Assembly: GCF_027319265.1 (NCBI RefSeq)
Contig: NZ_DAHVNP010000029.1
Coordinates: 1-64,000, forward strand
Length of the DNA stretch: 64,000 bases
Source of the DNA: Ferrimicrobium sp.
GTDB lineage: Bacteria > Actinomycetota > Acidimicrobiia > Acidimicrobiales > Acidimicrobiaceae
Direction: 5' to 3'
Positions within the stretch are counted from its first letter, which is position 1. Each line of letters opens with the position of its first letter. Made by a program: the position numbers and the translations under genes. Below, one piece after another: positions 9,634 through 25,722 of this stretch. The notes under the pieces are model-generated. The model saw nothing but the letters and a program-made list of their open reading frames with translations. It made no database searches and was not told where the DNA came from.

Positions 9634-10003
9634 TTACGCAAAGCTACTCACGTAGTTTCGCAGTTCACTTACTGCTTCATCGAAGCTAGTTGCACCGTCT
9701 AGCAAACCAAGGTTTGGTGTCAGGCCAGAGCTCTCTTCTCCACAGGCGTTACTGATGGCGGAGCTCGCCGTGGGGCAACGTAGGGTTGCCAGTCCTACTC
9801 TCTCAATGTTGATCGCAGCGTTGGTGTCTCGGTCATGGGTTGTTCCACAACCGTCGCACGTCCATTCACGGACGCTCAACGGCATGGACGCAGCTACTTG
9901 TCCGCACGCAGAACAGGTCTTCGAGCTCGGATACCAGCGGTCAATGACCACGAGCTGACTACCGAACTTGCCGCACTTGTATGAGAGCTGGCGCCTAAAC
10001 TTG
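9634..10003 (-). pseudogene. 3' remnant of an IS200/IS605-type tnpB (OrfB)
   Basis: Only the C-terminal part of a TnpB protein remains. In-frame residues from about 10003 read [13 protein letters not shown], then [17 protein letters not shown], a second zinc-ribbon pair CDGCG, and [10 protein letters not shown] with the last RuvC acidic residue. The upstream two thirds are missing, replaced by the end of cheR at 10048. No tnpA and no recognisable element ends are seen. It is a scar of an old insertion and cannot make a working nuclease. Confidence 0.75.
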
Positions 10004-14772: not shown

Positions 14773-14991
14773 GTGCTGGTATTGACCAGAAAGGCCAGTC
14801 AGAGTATCGTGATCGGAAACGACATCGTCATCACGATCCTGGATGTCCATCGCGACCAGGTGCGTGTCGGCATCGAGGCGCCTCGTGATGTTGATGTCCA
14901 CCGCCAAGAGATATTCGATGCGCTTCAGGCATCAAATCGTGATGCAGCCCAGTCAGCTGAGAAGATTCAACCCTCCCAAGAGAAGGAGTAG
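14773..14991 (+). CDS. csrA: Carbon storage/translational regulator CsrA
   Basis: The 72-residue protein matches CsrA along its core: [15 protein letters not shown], then I-x-I-x-V-L-D-V-style strands, [18 protein letters not shown] and a short C-terminal tail. CsrA is an RNA-binding dimer that blocks translation of flagellin or other mRNAs at GGA motifs. Arg in the EAPRDV(x)VHR region, needed for RNA contact, is present. The GTG start has a strong GGAGG six bases upstream. In flagellated Gram-positive bacteria FliW binds and neutralises CsrA; fliW is the next gene here but on the opposite strand, 3' end to 3' end. Confidence 0.92.
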
Positions 14992-15042: not shown

Positions 15043-15516
15043 TCATTCATGAGGGTCATTCCCGTTGACGATCCGTGATCGGTCTCGCAAAGGTACCTCC
15101 ACCGCTTCGTGCATGCTATACGCCTGGTTGTTCTGGAGAATCTGCGCACTACGCCAGTTCGTCACGTTGATGACTAAGGGTGCCTGGGTATTCACCGTTG
15201 GGAGCCCACCTTCGGCATCAAGAGTCGCGATCAACATGACAAGTACCTCGCCGGCGTCCTTGATCCCCAGCAGCGACTGATGAAAGTCATCAATATCGAC
15301 GGCCATCTCGATCCCCAACTCACTCGGTTGTGCGATCACGAAACTTGGTCCGTCCTCCTGCGTTGAGCGCAGGCCAAGATACGGGCCATACTCTGGTCCG
15401 AGAGCGCCCAGCACAAAGCTATGGTGCCCTTCAAAGCCAGGTAGTCCTATTGGAAAACTCAGCGGCAAACTCAGCACCCGCTCAGTACGGGTTGTCTCTT
15501 CGGTGACTTGACTCAT
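15043..15516 (-). CDS. fliW: Flagellar assembly factor FliW
   Basis: The 157-residue protein carries the FliW pattern: an N-terminal strand rich in L-P-L-S-F, then GLPGFEGHHSFVLG, FVIAQP and the C-terminal APLVINVTNWRSAQILQ segment. FliW binds flagellin and CsrA in a partner switch that ties flagellin synthesis to secretion. The start has GAGGAGG nearby. It is the last gene of the minus-strand string flgN-flgK-flgL-fliW, 122 bases after flgL. Confidence 0.9.
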   Translation of the reverse strand: MSQVTEETTRTERVLSLPLSFPIGLPGFEGHHSFVLGALGPEYGPYLGLRSTQEDGPSFVIAQPSELGIEMAVDIDDFHQSLLGIKDAGEVLVMLIATLDAEGGLPTVNTQAPLVINVTNWRSAQILQNNQAYSMHEAVEVPLRDRSRIVNGNDPHE

Positions 15517-15638
15517 TGATCCTCCTCGATGTTGGGACTGATTGTTTGGTGAAAAACTGCTCTACTAGCGGGCAACCAAATCCTGGTGTCAGGATCTGGA
15601 CGGGTAAACATTGGCGGATGGTGCTGCACTAGAGATCA

Positions 15639-16541
15639 CTAGAGATAATGGGCAAGGGTTGGCTGGTTCAACTGCGAGGTCGCATAGAGGGCGACCTGGT
15701 AGTTATTGAGTTCCTGCTGGTACTGGGTCGTCAACTTTGCTGTGTCGATATTCTGAATCGCACCGACTTCGTTCGTCGCCTGGGTGACGGCACCAGTGAC
15801 CTGTTGGCTCATCACCTGGAACTGGTCGTAGTTCACACCAGCTTGGGCTGCCTTATTCTCCAGATTGGTAAGCTGGCCCTGAACACCACCGAGATCGCTG
15901 CCGGCTGCCGCTGAGATGTTTCCACTGTTAAGATCACTGATTGCCTGGTTGATCGCCGCGAAGATGCCACCGCCCGACGCAGCAGCGCCAAACGGGTCCG
16001 TCAGGCTGGTTGGAAGCGCCACACCTGGAGCTGCGGCCACCTGTGGCGCTGTTGAATTCCCTTGATAGGTCACAGTGGTTCCTACCCCTCCCGGTTGCGA
16101 GTAGGCTGTCGTGCCACCCGAGGTTCCGGCGAAGATCGCCTGACCGAGATACGTTGTGTTGGCTACACCGAGTAAGGACTGTTCGAGCCCACTGATCTGA
16201 CTAGCCAACCCCTGCGCGTTTGCAGTTGTGACTCCAGGACCACCCGCCTGCACCAACACACTCGAGATCTGTTGAACGATACTCACGGCTTGGGTCATAG
16301 ATGCATTGGCCAACGAGGCGACCGTCTGTCCCTCCTTGATATTGGTCTGGTACTGGTTGTAGGCCGAGAGCGATGCGTTCACGTTGATCAGGTTGGCTAC
16401 ACCCGTTGGGCTATCAGAGGGCTGCGAGATATTCTGGCCAGTGGTGAGGGTCTGTTCCAGTGAACTGAGCTGGGTCTGATACTGATCAAGCGAGGTCGTC
16501 ATCAGCGCGCTAAGGCTCATCTGCGTTGGGATCATCGACAT
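15639..16541 (-). CDS. flgL: Flagellar hook-associated protein 3 (FlgL)
   Basis: The 300-residue protein has flagellin-like coiled-coil ends. The N-terminus contains a long helix with SSLEQTLTTGQNISQPSDSPTG, the usual start of FlgL, and the C-terminus ends in a helix with LNNYQVALYATSQL. The middle is low in charge and rich in Gly, Thr and Ala, as expected of a surface domain. FlgL sits between hook-associated FlgK and the flagellin filament. It lies 21 bases after flgK in the same operon. Confidence 0.9.
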   Translation of the reverse strand: MSMIPTQMSLSALMTTSLDQYQTQLSSLEQTLTTGQNISQPSDSPTGVANLINVNASLSAYNQYQTNIKEGQTVASLANASMTQAVSIVQQISSVLVQAGGPGVTTANAQGLASQISGLEQSLLGVANTTYLGQAIFAGTSGGTTAYSQPGGVGTTVTYQGNSTAPQVAAAPGVALPTSLTDPFGAAASGGGIFAAINQAISDLNSGNISAAAGSDLGGVQGQLTNLENKAAQAGVNYDQFQVMSQQVTGAVTQATNEVGAIQNIDTAKLTTQYQQELNNYQVALYATSQLNQPTLAHYL

Positions 16542-16562
16542 CGTTATGTTCTCCTTCCTTGG

Positions 16563-17960
16563 CTAAACATCTTGTATGAGTGATTGCAGGGTCGCAGCTA
16601 CCGTTGAGATCACCTTGGCCGCTGCCTGGTACTGCTGTTGGTAGTTGACGAGGTTGACGAGTTGGGAGTTGACCGACACCCCAGAGACCGATTGTTCCGC
16701 ACTGTAGGCTTGGTTATAGACGTTGGTCGCATTGGTCGCGTTCGCGGTAGCGTTTTGGACGTCCAGCCCCGCCTGTGCAACCGACGTTGCCCACTCTCCA
16801 GTAGGACCAGTTGTGGCGGTCTGAAGATTGGCGATCTGCTGAAACGTGGTACCATCACCTGCCAGTGAGCTCGTGCCAGAGGCTAGGTAGCTCGACGCAA
16901 ACTGAGGATTAACCATAAAGGTCGATGCATTGACCTGAGCTGAGGTAGTCGGAGTCGTTGGTGCCGAGAAAGAGGCCCCTTGACCGTATCCAAAGAGCGG
17001 TGTCGTGAGACCAGTAGTTGAGGATCCTCCGTTGCTGGTGGAGTTATTGACCCTCACTACCAGGCTGCTTGCTAATTGGTTCAAGGAATTCATGTACTTT
17101 GGTAGATTGGAATTAAGGGCAGCAAGCGTTGCACCAAGTGTGCCACTACTGACCGGCACCGACGTGCCAGAGGAGGCCAAGGTGACGGTTGCATCACCAG
17201 TAGTAGATCCAGTTGCGAGACCCGAGCCTGGCGTAAAAGTGATTTGAGATGCCTGTCCACCCTGCACCAACGCCACTCCACCGATAAGAAGAGTGGTCTG
17301 GCCTGCATGCCCAGGGATCGAGGTGACGCCAAGCTCACTGGCAAGTTTGTCGATCACCTGGTTTTGTTGATCAACAAGAGTGTTAGAGGCACCGGGTGTC
17401 AGCGAGGTACTAGCGAGTTGGGTGTTGATGGAGGCAACCTGCTGGAGCTGGGAGTTGATCGTGCCAACTAACGTCGTTGCCGCAGTTGAAGCCTGATTGT
17501 AGGTAGCGGTGAGATTTGCCGCTGCCTGGTGGATGGCGGTGGCCACGTTCTGTGCAGAAGCTTGCAGCTGCAGATAGGCGGCAGGCTGCGACGGTGTATC
17601 AGCAACATTGGAGAAATCATTGAACATCGTATTCATCTGTTCAGCGATCCCGTTCGAACTCGGCTCGTTGAAGGAGGCTTGGGCGCTCGTCAACAGTGAC
17701 TGCATCTGATTCGCATAACTCTGGGAACCATTAGCCGAGAGCTCGAGTTGCCGGTTGAAGCTATTGGAGGATTGGAGGATACCGGTGACCGTTACGCCGT
17801 TACCAATGGGATCCCCAGGGGTCTGCTGGTTCGCAAACGATGCTGTTTCTTTGAGATAGCCAGGGGTGTTGGCGTTGGAGATATTCTCACTGACGGTGTC
17901 GAGGCCGGTCTGTGCGGCATCGAGGCCAGAGAGCGCAATGGAGAGCGAACCGCCACTCAT
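16563..17960 (-). CDS. flgK: Flagellar hook-associated protein 1 (FlgK)
   Basis: The 465-residue protein starts with the rod/hook-family signature (SLSIALSGLDAAQTGLDTVSENISNANTPGY) within its first 36 residues and ends with the matching C-terminal coiled coil (VNLVNYQQQYQAAAKVIST). FlgK forms the junction between hook and filament. Its ATG overlaps the stop of the preceding FlgN-like gene by four bases. The protein is on the short side for FlgK because the central domain is reduced. Confidence 0.92.
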   Translation of the reverse strand: MSGGSLSIALSGLDAAQTGLDTVSENISNANTPGYLKETASFANQQTPGDPIGNGVTVTGILQSSNSFNRQLELSANGSQSYANQMQSLLTSAQASFNEPSSNGIAEQMNTMFNDFSNVADTPSQPAAYLQLQASAQNVATAIHQAAANLTATYNQASTAATTLVGTINSQLQQVASINTQLASTSLTPGASNTLVDQQNQVIDKLASELGVTSIPGHAGQTTLLIGGVALVQGGQASQITFTPGSGLATGSTTGDATVTLASSGTSVPVSSGTLGATLAALNSNLPKYMNSLNQLASSLVVRVNNSTSNGGSSTTGLTTPLFGYGQGASFSAPTTPTTSAQVNASTFMVNPQFASSYLASGTSSLAGDGTTFQQIANLQTATTGPTGEWATSVAQAGLDVQNATANATNATNVYNQAYSAEQSVSGVSVNSQLVNLVNYQQQYQAAAKVISTVAATLQSLIQDV

Positions 17961-18352
17961 GCGCGGTGACTCATCGACTCAGGCTTTAAGAGCTCGATGT
18001 CTCCGTCGCCACGGTAAAGACCGATGTCAAGTCCCAAGTCACGCATTAGGTTGGCTACGACCATCGAACGCCAGAAACACCCGACCATCACGACATTCGC
18101 TTTGGTTGCCAACTGTTGGTACCGACTCCTAAAGGCGCCAGGTTCCAGCTCTCCTGATTGCACCTCTTCCACCAGGCAGCCAATCAGCTCATTGAGGCTC
18201 ACTGCTCGCAGGGCGAGCTCCTCATCGGCGTTCTGGGTCATCAAGTCGCTCATCGCGCTCAACTCATGATCGAGCTGCGCAAGAAGCTCTTCGATACGGT
18301 TCACATTCACTACGTGATCATCCATGGTGGGACCATCGGCACTGATACTCAC
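17957..18352 (-). CDS. flgN: Probable FlgN-type flagellar chaperone
   Basis: The 131-residue acidic protein has two or three long amphipathic helices (RIEELLAQLDHELSAMSDLM; LRAVSLNELIGCLVEEV). It lies directly before flgK, where FlgN usually sits, and overlaps flgK by four bases. FlgN chaperones FlgK and FlgL and delivers them to the export gate. Sequence similarity is weak, so the call rests mainly on position and helical character. The GTG start lies only three bases after the stop of the VirD4/TraG-like gene; an ATG at 18325 is an alternative. Confidence 0.6.
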   Translation of the reverse strand: MSISADGPTMDDHVVNVNRIEELLAQLDHELSAMSDLMTQNADEELALRAVSLNELIGCLVEEVQSGELEPGAFRSRYQQLATKANVVMVGCFWRSMVVANLMRDLGLDIGLYRGDGDIELLKPESMSHRA

Positions 18353-18355
18353 AAC

Positions 18356-19603
18356 CTAAGTTCTCGTTTTCGAGCGTGTGAAGAGCCGTGTCATCCGGTG
18401 TGACCCCTCCATGAGGATCGGGTAACGAGACGCCAACGCTGCCGGGGACAAATCGCGCAGATAGCTGCGCGTAATGGGATCCGAGGTCGAGCTCATAAAG
18501 AGCTTGCTCGCATGGTTGTTGATGATCGAGTTCGCCGAGCGTCCATAACGGTGTTCAAGCTGGGCAAGGTCCTGCACGATCGAGATCAAGCGCACTCCTT
18601 GCCCAATACCGATTGCCGCCAGGCGATCTAAGTTCGGAATCGGTGCGAGGTTGGCGAGTTCGTCCAAGCACAACAGCATCGGCTGTGCGTGTCCTCCCTC
18701 AAGCGCTGTCACGACGATACGCGAGAGCATCAATGCAAAGAGCAGAGAATGGAACTCCTGTTCTCCCGCACTGGCCACTAGGAACATTGAGCTGGGCACT
18801 CCATCGAAGAGATCGAGGACCCGAAAGCCAGGTAAGGTTGTGTCCTCACGGGCCAGCGGTCCAAGCAGTCCTCGTGCGGTGAGGAGGACCGAGTCACGTT
18901 GGCGATCCTCCAAGGCACACGTCGCCAACACCTGCTCAGCCAATCCACGCTCCCCTTGGGCACAGAGACTCCGATAGAGCTCCCCTGGATCGTCAAGCCA
19001 ACCGAGCATTGGCGCTCCGGTGTCATGTGAGGCGCGCAGCACACCAGCCACCACGGGCTCTGCCAGCTGATACCAAAAGTGTGTATCCCCGCTTGTCAAG
19101 GCGTACGAGGGTTGAGCGAGCACGAGCGCATGCGCCATCGAAGCGGCTTCACGCCTACCGGGTGTCTCACCGACCAGATCCCAACGATGGGTCGCACGCT
19201 CGGGATCACCGATAATGATCAGCCGTCCCTTCGCTGCTCGACTGGCGAGTACGCCCGGGGTAAGCAGATCCGCCTTCACCGACGTCGCGACCAGTGATCC
19301 GGGAAATGACAAGAGATTGGGGACCACGACGCCAGTCGTCTTCCCGCTCCTCGTTGGACCGACCACGAGCAAGGAGTGGTCGTCGACGATCGAAACCCGC
19401 CGATGCCGAGAGAGCTGGATCCGAAGGCGATTCGCCGGTATCCCAACAGGACTGCCGACGCGTAGCCTAAGGCCGGATTCTGGCCGTTGTAGCCGCCGAT
19501 ACCCACCACGCAGCTGACCCGATGAGGGTGGGGTCCGCTCTCCCCGCTGAGAACCAAAGAGCCAAAGCGCGATGGCCACCGCAAGCACAAGGACCGTCTT
19601 CAC
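18356..19603 (-). CDS. VirD4/TraG-like coupling ATPase
   Basis: The protein (about 415 residues) has one N-terminal membrane segment (VKTVLVLAVAIALWLF), then a TraG/VirD4 ATPase domain: Walker A GPTRSGKTTG, Walker B MLLCLDELANL and the arginine-rich end of the RecA-like core. Coupling proteins bring substrates to a type IV secretion channel. The start is taken as the GTG at 19603, one base after the stop of the preceding ATPase gene. It is shorter than typical conjugative TraG proteins. No relaxase gene is present anywhere in the window, so DNA conjugation as its function is doubtful. Confidence 0.8.
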   Translation of the reverse strand: MKTVLVLAVAIALWLFGSQRGERTPPSSGQLRGGYRRLQRPESGLRLRVGSPVGIPANRLRIQLSRHRRVSIVDDHSLLVVGPTRSGKTTGVVVPNLLSFPGSLVATSVKADLLTPGVLASRAAKGRLIIIGDPERATHRWDLVGETPGRREAASMAHALVLAQPSYALTSGDTHFWYQLAEPVVAGVLRASHDTGAPMLGWLDDPGELYRSLCAQGERGLAEQVLATCALEDRQRDSVLLTARGLLGPLAREDTTLPGFRVLDLFDGVPSSMFLVASAGEQEFHSLLFALMLSRIVVTALEGGHAQPMLLCLDELANLAPIPNLDRLAAIGIGQGVRLISIVQDLAQLEHRYGRSANSIINNHASKLFMSSTSDPITRSYLRDLSPAALASRYPILMEGSHRMTRLFTRSKTRT

Positions 19604-19604
19604 G

Positions 19605-20759
19605 CTAACCTCGCATAGCCTTATCAGTGTCGACAAGTCCGAATTCTTCCGCAAGAAGTCGGTGGCTCACGAGAAACTGATGGGTACCGATACTCCAGAG
19701 CGCCTCGCCCCTGGCGAGGGTAGCGAGTGTCTCGCCCACCATGGGGCTAAGCCCAAGGGTCGCCGTGAGCTGAGTCACCTCCTCGCGGGCTTGGCGAAAG
19801 ATAACGCGGGTCTCGACATCTTTGACCAATTCAGCGGCCCCAGCGTCCAAATCCGAGATCCGGTGCGTAACGGCGATCACCGACGCTCCATAGCTACGAG
19901 CGAGCTTGAACAGACCCCGCATCTCCCGTACTGCATCCGCATGTTGAAGCACCGACCAGGCCTCATCGATGACGACAAAACCTGGGGAGAGTTCTGACTT
20001 GGCGAACTGTGCGATACGTGCCCGGAGCAGACAGCTGATAGCGAAGGCCGTCAACCGAGGATCCACGAGCGAGCGAAGGTCCACCACAACGCGTTCCCGA
20101 AGGGCGACACTTTGGCCATCCACCGCAAAGACACCGGCGAGATCGCCATCGATGAGGCGGGTGAACTGAGCACGCAATTCGCGACGAAGTCGCCCCTCCT
20201 CTCGATCAGCGTGCGCCCCAACGGACCCTCGGTCAACAAGATCGACGAGGTGAGCCAGGGTGATCGTACCGGGATCGACCATGAGCTGCGCGGTGATCTC
20301 CTGGAGCAACTGGTACTCCAGCGGTAAGGGTGATCGGCCATAGAGTACGACAAAGATACCCACCAATACCCCGGCGAGGACCCGCTGCGAAGTACCGACT
20401 CCTGCAAAGGGGTCCAACCCGGCACCGTCGGCTAGACCCAATTGCTTCGCGCCCAAACTTGTCGCTGCAGGCGCATACTCCCCTTTTGGATCGAGAATCA
20501 AGATTGAAGTTGTCGGCGTAGCCTCCCGAACCAACAGGGTCTTGACAAAGGCACTCTTACCACGACCGATCTCTCCAAGCACAAGCATGTTGGGACTCGT
20601 CAAATAGCCTGCTTGGTAAAGCTCGAATGGGTCAAAGCAAAAGACACCACCGAGACGGGAAACCCCGACGGGACGAAGGCGAGTGGGAGGCAACGGACTT
20701 GAGGCCAGGAGCGGCAGTCGCCCCAGGGTTCGCGTGCTGTCCTGGAAGCTCAACTCCAT
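19605..20759 (-). CDS. VirB4/TraC-like secretion ATPase (short form)
   Basis: The 384-residue protein contains the ATPase half of a VirB4-type protein: Walker A GEIGRGKSAF near residue 65, ILDPKGEYAP, Walker B GFVVIDEAW, and SVIAVTHRISDL with the sensor region. VirB4 proteins usually have 500-900 residues with an N-terminal domain contacting the channel; here that domain is missing, so it may be supplied by the SCO6880-like neighbour. It overlaps the upstream gene by ten bases and is followed after one base by the VirD4-like gene. Confidence 0.8.
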   Translation of the reverse strand: MELSFQDSTRTLGRLPLLASSPLPPTRLRPVGVSRLGGVFCFDPFELYQAGYLTSPNMLVLGEIGRGKSAFVKTLLVREATPTTSILILDPKGEYAPAATSLGAKQLGLADGAGLDPFAGVGTSQRVLAGVLVGIFVVLYGRSPLPLEYQLLQEITAQLMVDPGTITLAHLVDLVDRGSVGAHADREEGRLRRELRAQFTRLIDGDLAGVFAVDGQSVALRERVVVDLRSLVDPRLTAFAISCLLRARIAQFAKSELSPGFVVIDEAWSVLQHADAVREMRGLFKLARSYGASVIAVTHRISDLDAGAAELVKDVETRVIFRQAREEVTQLTATLGLSPMVGETLATLARGEALWSIGTHQFLVSHRLLAEEFGLVDTDKAMRG

Positions 20760-21997
20760 CCAGTCACCCCCAGAAGCGCCCGCTCGAAGAGGGTGCGCTG
20801 CTCCCCAAGGACAAGCTTTAGCCGAAGCTGCGCGCTCGCCGCTAACTCCTCCAGCCCAGCGCGGCTCGCCACCAATCGTTGCGCGCTCGGAGCCAAGAGT
20901 ACCACCAGCACCTGGTAACGACAGAGCCGGTACCCAGCCAGGAGCTCCTCCTCTTGCGTGAGCGAGGTAGCCTCACGGTAGTCATCTCGGGCTCGATCCA
21001 GATAACCTCGCTCTCGACGAAGTCGACGATCGGCGGCCATCTCAGTCCGGTGACGCGCCACCTCCCGTTGAGCCCGTCGCGCCTCGACTGGGTGCACAAT
21101 GAGGGAGACCACACGGCTTGGGGAGCCCGGGGCAAAGAGGCCGAGGAGCATCCCTGGGTCTACGCTCCGACCTGGCCAACCTTCGATACGATAGGTCGAG
21201 GCTACGAACCCGTCGCCAACGAGCATCTCTACCCGTTCACTGGCTTGCGCACCGGCCTTAGAGAAGGAGCTGCTAATGGCGCCACACGCCCTGTCGACCA
21301 AGTCGTTGGGTACCTCCGGCGATGCCAAGGTGATGCCTTCGATGTGGTTCGTCGTACCAAGTCCCGTCATCGTTCTAATCAGGGCAGTACGGTGTCGACG
21401 CAAAGACCCGGGTGGCCCGGTCACGAGCAACGACGTCTGGACCCCATAGGTGGTGAGCGCCAACTCCCGATAACTCTTGGAGCACTCCGACAGGTCCTCA
21501 AAGAGGGTCTGTGGCAGGATCGTGCTACGGAGCACCAGCCCGCCATGTGGCACCAACCGGTTTGACGCCTCGGTCAGGAGGTGTGCCCAGGCGTCGCCGT
21601 ACTCCCGCTTGGCACGCAGTATCGCTGCTGGGGTCTCATCGGTGACCACGAAGCCCCCGATCAGCTGGCGCGAACCGACACTCATCAGCAGTTGCGCGTC
21701 GGTAGAGACCCCTGGGGTACGGCGCGTGAGCCTTGCCCCCACGAACATCTTGATCGATGCAAAGGGGTGGATCTTGAACCAGAGTGTTGCTCCAAGGAGC
21801 GCGGCCCCTCCCACGATTCCCCCGATGACCAAGGCGAGGCGCATCATCGGGTTCGCCAGACCAAGGACGCCAATGACGACTACCACCGCAAGAGCAAACC
21901 GTGCCACCACGGTGACGCGAAGACCCAACATCTGCGTCCCTGACACGGGGGTGCCAAAATAGACGAGATCATGCTGATCGACGTCATCGCTGTTCAT
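20750..21997 (-). CDS. SCO6880-like type IV secretion component
   Basis: The 415-residue protein has two membrane segments near the N-terminus (about residues 33-50 and 53-70, like the PrgI family), followed by a large soluble domain. The C-terminal part (EELAASAQLRLKLVLGEQ, then FERALLGVTG) matches what I know of the actinobacterial SCO6880 family, found between TrbL-like and VirB4-like genes in actinobacterial integrative elements and chromosomal clusters. Its exact role is unknown. It may hold the domain that the short VirB4-like protein lacks. It overlaps neighbours on both sides by 4 and 10 bases. Confidence 0.65.
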   Translation of the reverse strand: MNSDDVDQHDLVYFGTPVSGTQMLGLRVTVVARFALAVVVVIGVLGLANPMMRLALVIGGIVGGAALLGATLWFKIHPFASIKMFVGARLTRRTPGVSTDAQLLMSVGSRQLIGGFVVTDETPAAILRAKREYGDAWAHLLTEASNRLVPHGGLVLRSTILPQTLFEDLSECSKSYRELALTTYGVQTSLLVTGPPGSLRRHRTALIRTMTGLGTTNHIEGITLASPEVPNDLVDRACGAISSSFSKAGAQASERVEMLVGDGFVASTYRIEGWPGRSVDPGMLLGLFAPGSPSRVVSLIVHPVEARRAQREVARHRTEMAADRRLRRERGYLDRARDDYREATSLTQEEELLAGYRLCRYQVLVVLLAPSAQRLVASRAGLEELAASAQLRLKLVLGEQRTLFERALLGVTGWS

Positions 21998-23070
21998 CCT
22001 CGTCTCCCTTTTCGTTGGTGTCCGTAGAGAAATTCATCGACCCATGGGTCGGTCTTCGCCATTTCAGCGATCGCCGCTGGCACCGGGTGCCCCTGATACT
22101 GGGGCAGGGTCGACTTCGTCTGTTTGGACCAGGGCGCCGCCAAGACGATGCTCGCCATGTACCCCTGATCAGCAAGGGCTCCGGCACGAGAGAGTGCCAT
22201 GGATCGCGCACTCGAAAAGGCCTCGAGCGCAACCGCCTCACTGAAGGCGACCGAGCGCAGAATCGCGATCGGAGCAAAGCAGACAACCAGCAACAAGGCC
22301 ACCCCCGAGAAGGCGAGCGAAAGAAGGCTGCCAATGCCAGAGGGACCCGTCCCTTCGACAAGGAGCGCAGCACCCAACCCGACCCCGATAGCGAGAACGA
22401 GTTTGGAGATCACAAGCCCAAACAGGGAACGCAGCGCCGTGGTAAACCAGTGACGACCCATCGGAAGGACAATGCCAATGCAGGCCAGCGGAAAGAGCGC
22501 GAGTACGAGGTAGATCCCGGCATCACGCATGAGTAACTCCAAAAAGAGGGCAACGGCGCCAAGCAGTGCGATCGCCGCTAGCACCCCTGCCACGATCGGC
22601 CCAACCCCAGGAACGGCACGCCCCCAAGAGAAGAGGAGGGCGAGCCGAGGAAGTGCGGCGATGTCCCCAAGCGGCCCCTTTGCGAGTGCATCCACCACGG
22701 ATGCGAGATCGGCGGTCAAGGTCGGTGCCAGCAGCACTGCACACACCGCGATGGGTACGCGAGCGACCAACTCGACAAGAGACCCGATACTCTGACGCCA
22801 CAGCGCCGCGACCACCCCGATGAGGAGCGCAGGAACCAACACAATCGCTAGGAGTTCGACCTGCTGACGATAGACCGCCTGCACGGCGTGTGCCCCAATG
22901 TCGAGTCGATCCGCCGCGTCGAGCAGCTTGACGACCTCGCGGAGAAACCAACTCAGTGCCCCAGTGAGGAGGTGACCGGCAAAACCGGCGAGCGCGGTCG
23001 CCAGGTACCGAACGATCGCATGTGCGATCGCATCGACTGGGGCTGAAATAAGCGACCCGATCACCACCAC
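21994..23070 (-). CDS. TrbL/VirB6-like polytopic membrane protein
   Basis: The 358-residue protein has about seven to eight hydrophobic segments between residues 15 and 285 and a soluble, charged C-terminal tail ending near KGRRG. Length, topology and position (after a VirB2-like gene and before the SCO6880-like gene) fit the TrbL/VirB6 inner channel component. Sequence identity among such proteins is low, so the call depends on context. It overlaps the next gene by four bases. Confidence 0.65.
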   Translation of the reverse strand: MVVIGSLISAPVDAIAHAIVRYLATALAGFAGHLLTGALSWFLREVVKLLDAADRLDIGAHAVQAVYRQQVELLAIVLVPALLIGVVAALWRQSIGSLVELVARVPIAVCAVLLAPTLTADLASVVDALAKGPLGDIAALPRLALLFSWGRAVPGVGPIVAGVLAAIALLGAVALFLELLMRDAGIYLVLALFPLACIGIVLPMGRHWFTTALRSLFGLVISKLVLAIGVGLGAALLVEGTGPSGIGSLLSLAFSGVALLLVVCFAPIAILRSVAFSEAVALEAFSSARSMALSRAGALADQGYMASIVLAAPWSKQTKSTLPQYQGHPVPAAIAEMAKTDPWVDEFLYGHQRKGRRG

Positions 23071-23072
23071 CG

Positions 23073-23360
23073 TTAGACACCAAGTCCCAGGTGAAAGAAG
23101 AAGTTGATGATCGCTGGCGCTGCACCGATGATGAGCGCGGCTGCCCCCGCCGCCAGAACCGCCCGGCGACCAAAGTAGGACTGCTGGTAGTTCTGGCTAT
23201 GCGCGCCCAATGCCCAGGTCGCCGCTCCGATAATCAGGCCAATCAGTGCCAAAATGAGCGCCCAACCGCCGATCCCATTGGCGAGCTGTTGAATCACCGC
23301 TCCGCCCGGCAACGCCGAGGGATCAGGGTTGAGCGCTACATTGAGAAGCATCCATGCCAT
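23073..23360 (-). CDS. DUF6112-type small membrane protein, VirB2/TrbC-like
   Basis: The 95-residue protein has two membrane segments (about 29-49 and 66-84) flanking a short loop GAHSQNYQQSYFGRR. The order of motifs (ALPGGAVIQQLANGIGGWAL, WALGAHS-NYQ, GAAPAIINFFFHLG) agrees with the DUF6112 family of actinobacterial mobile elements as I recall it. The two-helix layout resembles the pilin VirB2/TrbC. The ATG at 23360 has AGGAGG seven bases upstream; the open frame extends further without support. It is the first gene of the long minus-strand string that runs into the flagellar genes. Confidence 0.7.
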   Translation of the reverse strand: MAWMLLNVALNPDPSALPGGAVIQQLANGIGGWALILALIGLIIGAATWALGAHSQNYQQSYFGRRAVLAAGAAALIIGAAPAIINFFFHLGLGV

Positions 23361-23388
23361 CTGTTCCTCCTTCCGTGGAGATTTTAAG

Positions 23389-23421
23389 CATATCATCCTT
23401 TTCTATGATGTTTCATATCAT
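23389..23421 (-). promoter_or_regulatory. Paired CATATCAT repeats upstream of the secretion operon
   Basis: CATATCAT occurs at 23389-23396 and again at 23414-23421, 25 bp apart, in an AT-rich pocket between the secretion operon and the divergent kinase gene. The spacing is about two and a half helical turns. They may be binding sites of a regulator; which one is unknown. Confidence 0.35.
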
Positions 23422-23517
23422 TCCATTAAAAAATATTCTCAAGGGGCCCGCTGCACCATGACACCCACCCGAGGGGCGATTCCCTCCTAGTATGGAGGAG
23501 TAAAGGAGAGCACAACG

Positions 23518-24540
23518 GTGGAGGACAGAACAAGTACACGCGTCGAGGACGCCGAACTTTGGAGTCGCGCAGCGGCGAGCCTCTCGATCGGTGTGGTGCT
23601 CGTCGACGCTGACTACCACACCGTCTACTCCGACTACGCCGATAAAATTCCCACGGGTGGCTTCGCCGAGCGTATACTGCTCGAACGCGCCATCTCTGCT
23701 CTGAAACACGATGCTCGCCTTGAGCTCTACCGTTCACAGACCCTTGAGGTCTTTGGCCCTCCAAAGAGCTACTTCCAACTCGTCACCACGCCCCTTGGCA
23801 GCGATCCTCACCCTCCCTTTATCATCACCGTTGAGAACATCACCGAACGCAAGCGGCTTGAGGAGGTGCGTCGTGACTTCGTCGCCAACGTCTCCCATGA
23901 ACTCAAAACCCCAGTCGGTGGTATCGTACTCCTCGCCGATGCCCTCAGCCAGGAGTCCGATCCCGCCACCGTCCTGCGTCTCTCTCGTCGAATCCTCGAC
24001 GAGGGGGATCGACTCGCCCGCCTCGTCACCGACCTCCTCGACCTCTCAAAGCTTGAGGAGACAGAACTCCACCAGATCCATGATGTCAACCTCAATGAGA
24101 TCGCCTCAGAGTGCGTGGATCGTTATCGACTCGGAGCAGAGGCGCGTGGGATCGGACTTGAGGTGACCTTTGCACCCGACCCCCCGATTGTGAGTGGCGA
24201 TCGTTGGCAGCTCAGCTCCGCCCTCTCCAACCTCATCGACAACGCCATCAAGTATTCCGAACCAGGAACCGAGGTGCGAGTCACGATCGCCATCTCAGCC
24301 GATAGCGTCGAGGCCATCATCGCTGACCGAGGCATCGGTATTCCTGCTCGCGACCTCTCACGTATTTTCGAGCGCTTTTACCGAGTCGATGCTGATCGCT
24401 CTCGCGCAACGGGAGGTACCGGCCTCGGACTCTCTATAGTGAGACATGTGATAGAAAATCATCAAGGCAAGATCGACGTCACCTCCACCGAGGGTGTCGG
24501 GACGACGTTTACGATCTCGCTCCCGCGGGTCCCCGCATGA
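23518..24540 (+). CDS. senX3: Sensor histidine kinase, SenX3/PhoR type
   Basis: The 340-residue protein has a PAS-like sensor part (about residues 15-110), a HisKA domain with the phospho-acceptor His in FVANVSHELKTP, and a HATPase domain with N-box LIDNAIKYSEPG, ADRGIGIP and GGTGLGLSIV. No membrane segment is seen at the N-terminus, so it may be soluble; typical SenX3 proteins have two. GTG start with GGAGAG upstream. It overlaps the response regulator gene by four bases. In actinobacteria this pair usually controls phosphate starvation genes, but no pst or phoU gene is nearby. Confidence 0.82.
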   Translation: MEDRTSTRVEDAELWSRAAASLSIGVVLVDADYHTVYSDYADKIPTGGFAERILLERAISALKHDARLELYRSQTLEVFGPPKSYFQLVTTPLGSDPHPPFIITVENITERKRLEEVRRDFVANVSHELKTPVGGIVLLADALSQESDPATVLRLSRRILDEGDRLARLVTDLLDLSKLEETELHQIHDVNLNEIASECVDRYRLGAEARGIGLEVTFAPDPPIVSGDRWQLSSALSNLIDNAIKYSEPGTEVRVTIAISADSVEAIIADRGIGIPARDLSRIFERFYRVDADRSRATGGTGLGLSIVRHVIENHQGKIDVTSTEGVGTTFTISLPRVPA

Positions 24541-25247
24541 GCCCGGATAAAGAACGCATCCTCATCGCCGAGGATGAGGAGAGTTTCATCGACGCGATGA
24601 CCCTTGGCCTCAGCCGCGAAGGCTTCGAACCCATCGTCGCCAGCGATGGCCAGCGGGCACTCGATCTCTTCCATGAGACAAACCCTGACTGCATCCTGCT
24701 CGATGTGATGCTACCCAAAATCTCCGGTCTCGACGTCTGCCGTCAGATTCGCAAGGAATCCAAGGTGCCGATCATCATGGTCACCGCTCGTGCTACCGAG
24801 CTCGACACCGTTCTCGGTCTCGAACTCGGAGCCGATGATTACGTCGCCAAACCATTTCGGATGGCCGAATTAGTCGCCCGTATCCGCGCGCTCTTACGTC
24901 GGACCACTGAGAGTGCAGAGCGACCGCGCACCGACGAGGAGGTGCTACGCTACCAGGGACTTACCGCCTTCGTCGATCGACATCAGGTGGTTGTGGGCGA
25001 GAACGAGATCAAACTTCCCCCGAAAGAGTTTGAGCTCCTCATCCTCTTCCTCCGTAATCCTGGCAAAGTGCTGACCCGCGATCTGCTTGTTGATCGAGTT
25101 TGGGGTCATGATTACTACGGAGACACCAAGACGCTCGACGTTCACATCAAACGCCTGAGAACCAAGATTGAACCCGACCCCAACAATCCCACGGTGTTGA
25201 CCACCATTCGGGGAGTAGGATATCGGCTTGATCTCGGACGAGAATGA
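24537..25247 (+). CDS. regX3: OmpR-family response regulator, RegX3-like
   Basis: The 236-residue protein has an N-terminal receiver domain (E12-D13, phospho-acceptor D56 in LLDVMLP, T in VTARATE, K in AKPFRM) and a C-terminal winged-helix DNA-binding domain (PPKEFELLILFLRNPGKVLTR, then KTLDVHIKRLRTKI). It is the partner of the preceding kinase. Its last 20 bases overlap the start of the Fur-family gene, which suggests that the three are transcribed together. Confidence 0.88.
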   Translation: MSPDKERILIAEDEESFIDAMTLGLSREGFEPIVASDGQRALDLFHETNPDCILLDVMLPKISGLDVCRQIRKESKVPIIMVTARATELDTVLGLELGADDYVAKPFRMAELVARIRALLRRTTESAERPRTDEEVLRYQGLTAFVDRHQVVVGENEIKLPPKEFELLILFLRNPGKVLTRDLLVDRVWGHDYYGDTKTLDVHIKRLRTKIEPDPNNPTVLTTIRGVGYRLDLGRE

Positions 25248-25722
25248 GGATACGAGGGTCGCGCACGTCCTCGAACGACTCGCCTCCTCTGGCCATCGCA
25301 TTACCAGCCCAAGGCGCCATATAGTGACCGCACTCGTGGCAGCCGGTGGACACCTGACGGCGGAAGAGGTCGCCACCGCCGTGCAAGCGCGGGATCCGTC
25401 AGTGCATCTTGCGACCGTCTACCGCACGCTTGAAGCACTCGAACACTCAGGGGTGGTGATCCACATCCATCTAGGACATGGTCGTGCCATCTATCATCTC
25501 GCCGACAGCTCCCATTATCACCTCTATTGCCAAGAGTGCGGTGCGGTTCAAGAGATCCCCCAGTCCGAGCTGGACAGTCTCTTTACCACGATCGCCCGTT
25601 CCTATGATTTTGCACCAAGTCTTGGCCATTTCGCAATCATCGGCACCTGCGGTCGCTGTAGGGATCGCAATGGATCGAAGGGACGCAGCTCCGGCGACAC
25701 TTCACCCGAGTCGATCACCTGA
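25228..25722 (+). CDS. Fur-family metal-responsive repressor
   Basis: The 164-residue protein has the Fur winged helix (ITSPRRHIVTALVAAGGHLTAEEV; HLATVYRTLEALEHSG) and the dimerisation domain with HYHLYCQECG and a second Cys pair GTCGRC, which together form the structural zinc site. The specific metal cannot be told; lacking an obvious perR or zur signature it is left as Fur family. The frame offers only a TTG start at 25228, inside regX3. The last 121 bases overlap dadA on the other strand, so the C-terminal zinc motif is encoded antisense to the dadA tail. Confidence 0.8.
   Translation: MISDENEDTRVAHVLERLASSGHRITSPRRHIVTALVAAGGHLTAEEVATAVQARDPSVHLATVYRTLEALEHSGVVIHIHLGHGRAIYHLADSSHYHLYCQECGAVQEIPQSELDSLFTTIARSYDFAPSLGHFAIIGTCGRCRDRNGSKGRSSGDTSPESIT

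Follow-up and report, generated by a model that had tools for sequence, protein, structure and literature searches.

A relaxase-less type IV secretion-like cassette abuts a flagellar operon behind a sigma-28-type promoter motif in the Acidimicrobiaceae

In a Ferrimicrobium genome, genes resembling those of a type IV secretion system (T4SS) run directly into flagellar hook-associated genes on the same strand, an arrangement that raises the question of whether the two sets form one coupled system or lie side by side. The stretch analysed here (64,000 nucleotides, hereafter the window) had been examined previously from its sequence alone, and that reading proposed transcriptional and translational coupling of the two halves, arising either by recruitment of a conjugation module into a flagellum-timed system or by a deletion that joined two operons. 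The reading preferred here, with a probability of roughly 0.78, is that of two abutting, separately promoted units, a domesticated, relaxase-less cmd-like T4SS and a sigma-28 flagellar operon. The secretion and flagellar halves probably adjoin one another without forming a single hybrid machine.

Composition of the gene string

Nine tightly packed minus-strand genes occupy positions 15043-23360, and all of the open reading frames are found at the places and on the strand given by the sequence-only reading, with Pfam and NCBIfam names that agree with it. The secretion half begins with a small, pilin-like protein of the DUF6112/TrbC-VirB2 type with two transmembrane (TM) segments (23073..23360, ATG start at 23360; PF19607 1.1e-7, PF04956 1.1e-3). 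It is followed by a TrbL/VirB6-like polytopic membrane protein resembling SCO6881 (21994..23070), the profile matches of which are weak (PF19597, TrbL_4, 8.7e-4; SCO6881_fam 7e-7, below its own cut-off). Next come a SCO6880-family protein (20750..21997; NF042935, 84.6 bits against a SCO6880_fam cut-off of 60 bits), a CmdB-like VirB4 ATPase domain (19605..20759; AAA_10 1.8e-10, DUF87) with Walker A and B motifs intact in the alignment, and a VirD4/TraG-like coupling ATPase with one N-terminal TM helix (18356..19603, GTG start at 19603; PF02534, T4SS-DNA_transf, 9.1e-25). The last two supply features of monoderm T4SSs, a VirB4 ATPase and a VirD4 coupling protein. A second, stand-alone VirD4-like ATPase with no evident N-terminal TM helix is encoded elsewhere (L064:9626-10840, on contig C18 of G000; also L069, L070, L072 and L074), beside CaiB-like, alpha/beta hydrolase-like and Ddl-like genes as judged by eye in the family genomes looked at.

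The flagellar half, also on the minus strand, comprises a FlgN-family chaperone of 122 amino acids (17957..18325), FlgK (HAP1; 16563..17960; TIGR02492, 257 bits), FlgL (HAP3; 15639..16541; TIGR02550, 127.6 bits), and FliW (15043..15516; PF02623 1.8e-22). The FlgN protein has no Pfam match itself; its assignment rests on positional homologues, 12 of 19 of which match PF05130 when aligned (best 2.2e-18). Just past fliW and convergent with it lies csrA (14773..14991, plus strand; 126 bits with a profile HMM built for this analysis).

At the other end of the string, a divergent intergenic region (23361..23517, read on the minus strand) is the likely site of the cassette's own promoter. It holds a conserved block upstream of the DUF6112 gene with a TATGCT -10-like element and a GGAGG ribosome site, and no sigma-28 motif was found in it. 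Beyond this region, on the plus strand, are the genes for a SenX3-like histidine kinase (23518..24540) and a RegX3-like response regulator (24537..25247), which serve as syntenic markers of the cassette by comparison of neighbour genes across loci, and a Fur-family regulator assigned by eye (25228..25722), a marker in many loci but not all. As the sequence-only reading had held, profile searches find no relaxase or integrase in the scanned genes, which lie between 8.4 and 25.2 kb. A TnpB-like fragment (Cas12f1-like_TNB 9e-17) is present at 9634-9951, flanked by a GntR-type regulator gene and by cheR.

The earlier observation that both ATPases are short is not supported as a sign of reduction, because VirB4 is split rather than truncated. 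An AF2 model of the SCO6880 protein (built from 17 homologues; pLDDT 69.6) matches the N-terminal region of R388 TrwK/VirB4 (7o42_A) with an E-value of 2.1e-11, and two TM-like, VirB3-like helices precede this VirB4-N fold. On the strength of the model, the SCO6880 protein and the separate ATPase together are predicted to make up a complete, split VirB4. The other actinobacterial loci that were read also have VirB4 divided between two genes. The word 'split' occurs nowhere in a T4SS review (PMC12857230), and the passages of it that were covered make no mention of the SCO6880/VirB4 layout. A candidate VirB8-like gene, its VirB8 identity putative, lies between the pilin and TrbL genes in some other loci of the phylum; a three-sequence profile, weak as a negative, finds no match to it in the genome of the window.

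A sigma-28-type motif at the VirD4 stop codon

The two halves meet at a putative sigma-28 (FliA/WhiG)-type promoter, TTAGGTT-N12-GCCGAT (18335..18359, minus strand), which is followed after nine nucleotides by an ATG. The TAG of the motif is the VirD4 stop codon, such that the -35 element overlaps the stop. With the spacer allowed to vary from 9 to 13, the motif occurs once in the 64-kb window and in 0 of 100 shuffles, and the junction pattern occurs three times in the whole genome. An exact TTAGGTT-N12-GCCGAT site is also present 72 bases before a 476-amino-acid open reading frame of no known function (L174; G000 contig C24, 5274-5298) and is possibly a further sigma-28 target, to judge from the sequence match. 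The genome encodes a FliA/WhiG-family sigma factor (268 bits).

The position of the motif bears on the start of flgN. The tight packing described in the sequence-only reading stands, except for the gap of three bases between VirD4 and flgN. The start codon is most likely the conserved ATG at 18325, 27 bases beyond the one at 18352, and this placement makes the gap 30 bp, as in relatives. The short distance from promoter to ATG suggests that the flgN mRNA is probably leaderless.

VirD4, flgN, and flgK follow one another on the same strand in all genomes of the genus and in six further genera of the Acidimicrobiaceae, seven genera in total; in those loci with a clear flgN start, 1 to 63 bp lie between VirD4 and flgN. 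The search of relatives for VirD4-like genes directly before flgN and flgK, proposed with the sequence-only reading, thus bears the arrangement out. The promoter-like geometry is conserved along with the gene order. In 12 loci from genera g1, g4, g5, and g7, the window included, TTAGGTT-N12-GCCGAT is followed by a start codon 9 nucleotides on (10 in one locus). Three loci of g2 and g3 have a TCA-type -35 with the same N12 and N9 spacings, and two more relatives (G006 and G018) carry the exact junction pattern. In all, the geometry is seen in 14 relatives of six genera and weakly in a seventh. Four genomes of genus g8 have TTACTTT-N12-GACGAA-N8-ATG, a weak sigma-28 match, and with so weak a site the two halves could be transcriptionally coupled in that genus.

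Late flagellar operons of the sigma-28 class have a sigma-28-type promoter, and FliW lies near CsrA. The flgN-flgK-flgL-fliW unit resembles them in gene content, promoter type and the proximity of FliW to CsrA. It differs in its position directly behind a T4SS gene, in having its -35 over the VirD4 stop, and in its probably leaderless flgN. The flagellin genes of relatives, with sequences read by eye, have similar sites with TCAAG- or TAAAG-type -35 elements and variants of GCCGAT; the flagellin site of the window's own genome is degenerate, and an automatic strict-motif scan for sigma-28 sites before flagellins, which had a poor anchor, returned 0 sites. In an outgroup genome (G050), where flgN and VirD4 are not adjacent, flgN has a similar sigma-28-type site, as would follow had flgN brought the promoter with it.

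Other signals at the junction are few. A terminator scan gives 12 terminator-like sites in the window (7.4 ± 2.9 in shuffles), none of them at the junction, and a sigma-70 scan gives two promoter-like sites, no more than in shuffles (2.4). Thus, of the promoter and terminator that would separate the halves, a promoter-like motif is present and a terminator was not found. Some read-through from the secretion half into flgN is likely, given that no terminator is seen between the halves and that the gap is only 1 to 63 bp. Transcription of all nine genes as one coupled unit, as first proposed, is nonetheless not supported, because a conserved sigma-28-type promoter motif stands at the junction.

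Age of the cassette and alternative explanations

The secretion cassette is older than the VirD4-flgN junction. By the present count it lies divergent from SenX3-RegX3 in 14 families of the order Acidimicrobiales, and Fur, serS, and an ABC transporter often follow further out; among these families flagellar genes adjoin it only in the Acidimicrobiaceae. Its distribution within that family also extends beyond flagellated members. Two genomes without flgK (G022 and G033) have convergent csrA immediately after VirD4, and two others (G015 and G025) retain no more than a flgN-like remnant. As csrA follows fliW in flagellated relatives, these four loci are best read, from their gene order, as having lost the flagellar block and kept the cassette. 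Recruitment into a flagellum-timed system, one of the two origins suggested earlier, is therefore not supported: the cassette predates the junction and is kept in 7 of the 11 family members that lack flgK. In genus g6 (L101 and L102, from G017 and G029), flgN-flgK-flgL-fliW-csrA is not at the T4SS cassette but next to genes resembling flhF/flhA/flhB and fliPQR, and FlgK is divergent (32-34% identity); this block is possibly a re-acquisition or a relocation.

Functional coupling is an unlikely alternative. The cassette would then operate together with the flagellum or during motility, as in DNA or protein export by swarmers, and adjacency would co-ordinate both, partly by read-through. The adjacency is indeed kept in seven genera and has no terminator within it, and the two gene sets co-occur. 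By statistics that ignore phylogeny and genome completeness, all 25 Acidimicrobiaceae genomes with FlgK carry the cassette VirB4, versus 7 of 11 without (36 genomes; p 0.006). In the two order-wide counts, which include some ICE-like VirB4 matches, VirB4 is present in 26 of 33 Acidimicrobiales genomes with FlgK versus 41 of 115 without (148 genomes, 7 with FlgK only and 74 with neither; Fisher p 2e-5), and a cassette-like VirB4, tallied by hand, in about 14 of 19 flagellate families versus about 22 of 61 overall (p 7e-5; the family numbering supplies the figure of 61). Co-occurrence above chance is the single observation in favour of a functional link, and it leaves room for a weaker one. Set against coupling itself are retention of the cassette after flagellar loss, its presence in many lineages without flagella, the separate flagellar-type promoter, and the usual lack of linkage between cassette and flagellar genes outside the family.

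It is far less probable that the cassette is a decaying remnant of an integrated conjugative element (ICE) that landed by chance beside flagellar genes. Homology to ICE transfer genes, the missing relaxase nearby, and an ICE-like T4SS on contig C37 of the same genome would fit such an origin, but dN/dS values of 0.05-0.21 show purifying selection on every cassette gene, as on the adjoining flagellar and chemotaxis genes, no integrase lies among the genes scanned, the Walker motifs are intact, and synteny with SenX3-RegX3, often with serS, is order-wide. As a recent event, a decaying ICE is ruled out by selection, intact motifs, and synteny.

An assembly or deletion artefact has next to no probability, for although the window comes from a draft genome of 82 contigs, it is refuted by 19 assemblies that show the same junction, including a genome assembled as one contig of 2,158,157 bp. 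Neither an artefact nor a deletion of recent date explains the VirD4-flgN adjacency, and the suggestion that a deletion had lately joined two operons falls with the family-wide distribution of the junction. The literature searched yielded no paper on a VirD4-flgN arrangement, in line with the earlier remark that no such system has been described. The arrangement is real, conserved, under selection, and under-described.

Relation to known systems and implications

The closest parallel in gene order is the cmdABCDEF cluster of Streptomyces coelicolor (SCO4126-4131; PMC2782261), likewise a chromosomal T4SS-like cluster with the same order except for cmdE. Deletions in cmd disturb sporulation and chromosome segregation and leave plasmid transfer unaffected, as reported by Xie et al. 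(PMC2782261), and SCO6878, SCO6880, and SCO6881 resemble cmdB, C and D (PMC2782261). The comparison was made with presumed Streptomyces genomes (7-10 Mb, one genus), which have pilin-like, cmdE-like, TrbL, SCO6880, VirB4, and VirD4 genes; the window has no cmdE-like gene between pilin and TrbL, and Streptomyces cmd has no flagellar neighbours. The Walker A lysine of the presumed Streptomyces VirB4 is residue 90, as in CmdB K90 (PMC2782261), and the K404 reported for CmdB is not seen in it. Tests of cmd function are confined to Streptomyces, and the window's VirB4 is distant from that of cmd. In the VirB4 tree, a long branch unites the presumed cmd sequences with two more rows from the phylum, apart from the Acidimicrobiales cassettes, and long branches leave this clade without firm placement. 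Branches look longer within the Acidimicrobiaceae than in the rest of the order, which suggests faster VirB4 evolution in the family, with long-branch effects as the alternative. A single-protein search with the window's VirB4 gives 17 loci. VirB4-like proteins on Micrarchaeota contigs (L217-L222) are 23-25% identical to it, with E-values relative to candidate stretches only.

Actinobacterial T4SS-ICE modules of the SCO6878-6881 type share DUF6112, TrbL, SCO6880, VirB4, and VirD4 with the window. Unlike them, the window's cassette has no nearby relaxase, integrase, or extra transfer genes, and its position is fixed through the order. Patescibacteria also have chromosomal T4SSs, mostly without relaxase, for which co-option to other work has been proposed (PMC12102498); that lineage is a different one, and the window has a VirB3-like/VirB4-N protein separate from the VirB4 ATPase domain. 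In Streptomyces, sporulation is under the control of WhiG, a sigma factor related to FliA that is discussed in PMC4255298. A cellular export role for the relaxase-less cmd-like T4SS, tied to the motile or dispersal phase, is a speculative and rather improbable extension, prompted by co-occurrence with flagella, by physical joining to a sigma-28 operon in one family, and by a Streptomyces homologue active in spore formation.

Under the preferred reading of two abutting units, the first would be an inner-membrane translocase of T4SS-like type, chromosomal and inherited vertically, with pilin-like, VirB6-like, VirB3/VirB4-N, VirB4 ATPase, and VirD4 components but no relaxase or local VirB8-like gene; it is homologous to Streptomyces cmd and actinobacterial ICE transfer modules and matches them in gene order. 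Rather than serving conjugation, it may carry DNA or protein through the membrane for housekeeping or development, the kind of role suggested for cmd. The second unit, placed behind the first presumably in the family ancestor, would be the late operon flgN-flgK-flgL-fliW, with an active sigma-28 promoter at the VirD4 stop through which the flagellar sigma factor turns it on. Its FliW probably acts with the CsrA encoded just beyond, and read-through between the units would be minor.

The locus offers a clean case of two operons so closely set that a stop codon overlaps a promoter element, and a warning that tight spacing is not to be read as co-transcription. It also points to a T4SS-like machine without conjugation genes that has long been fixed in the chromosomes of many Acidimicrobiales, one family of which has species in culture, such that the role of Streptomyces cmd-type systems becomes testable in simple unicellular relatives.
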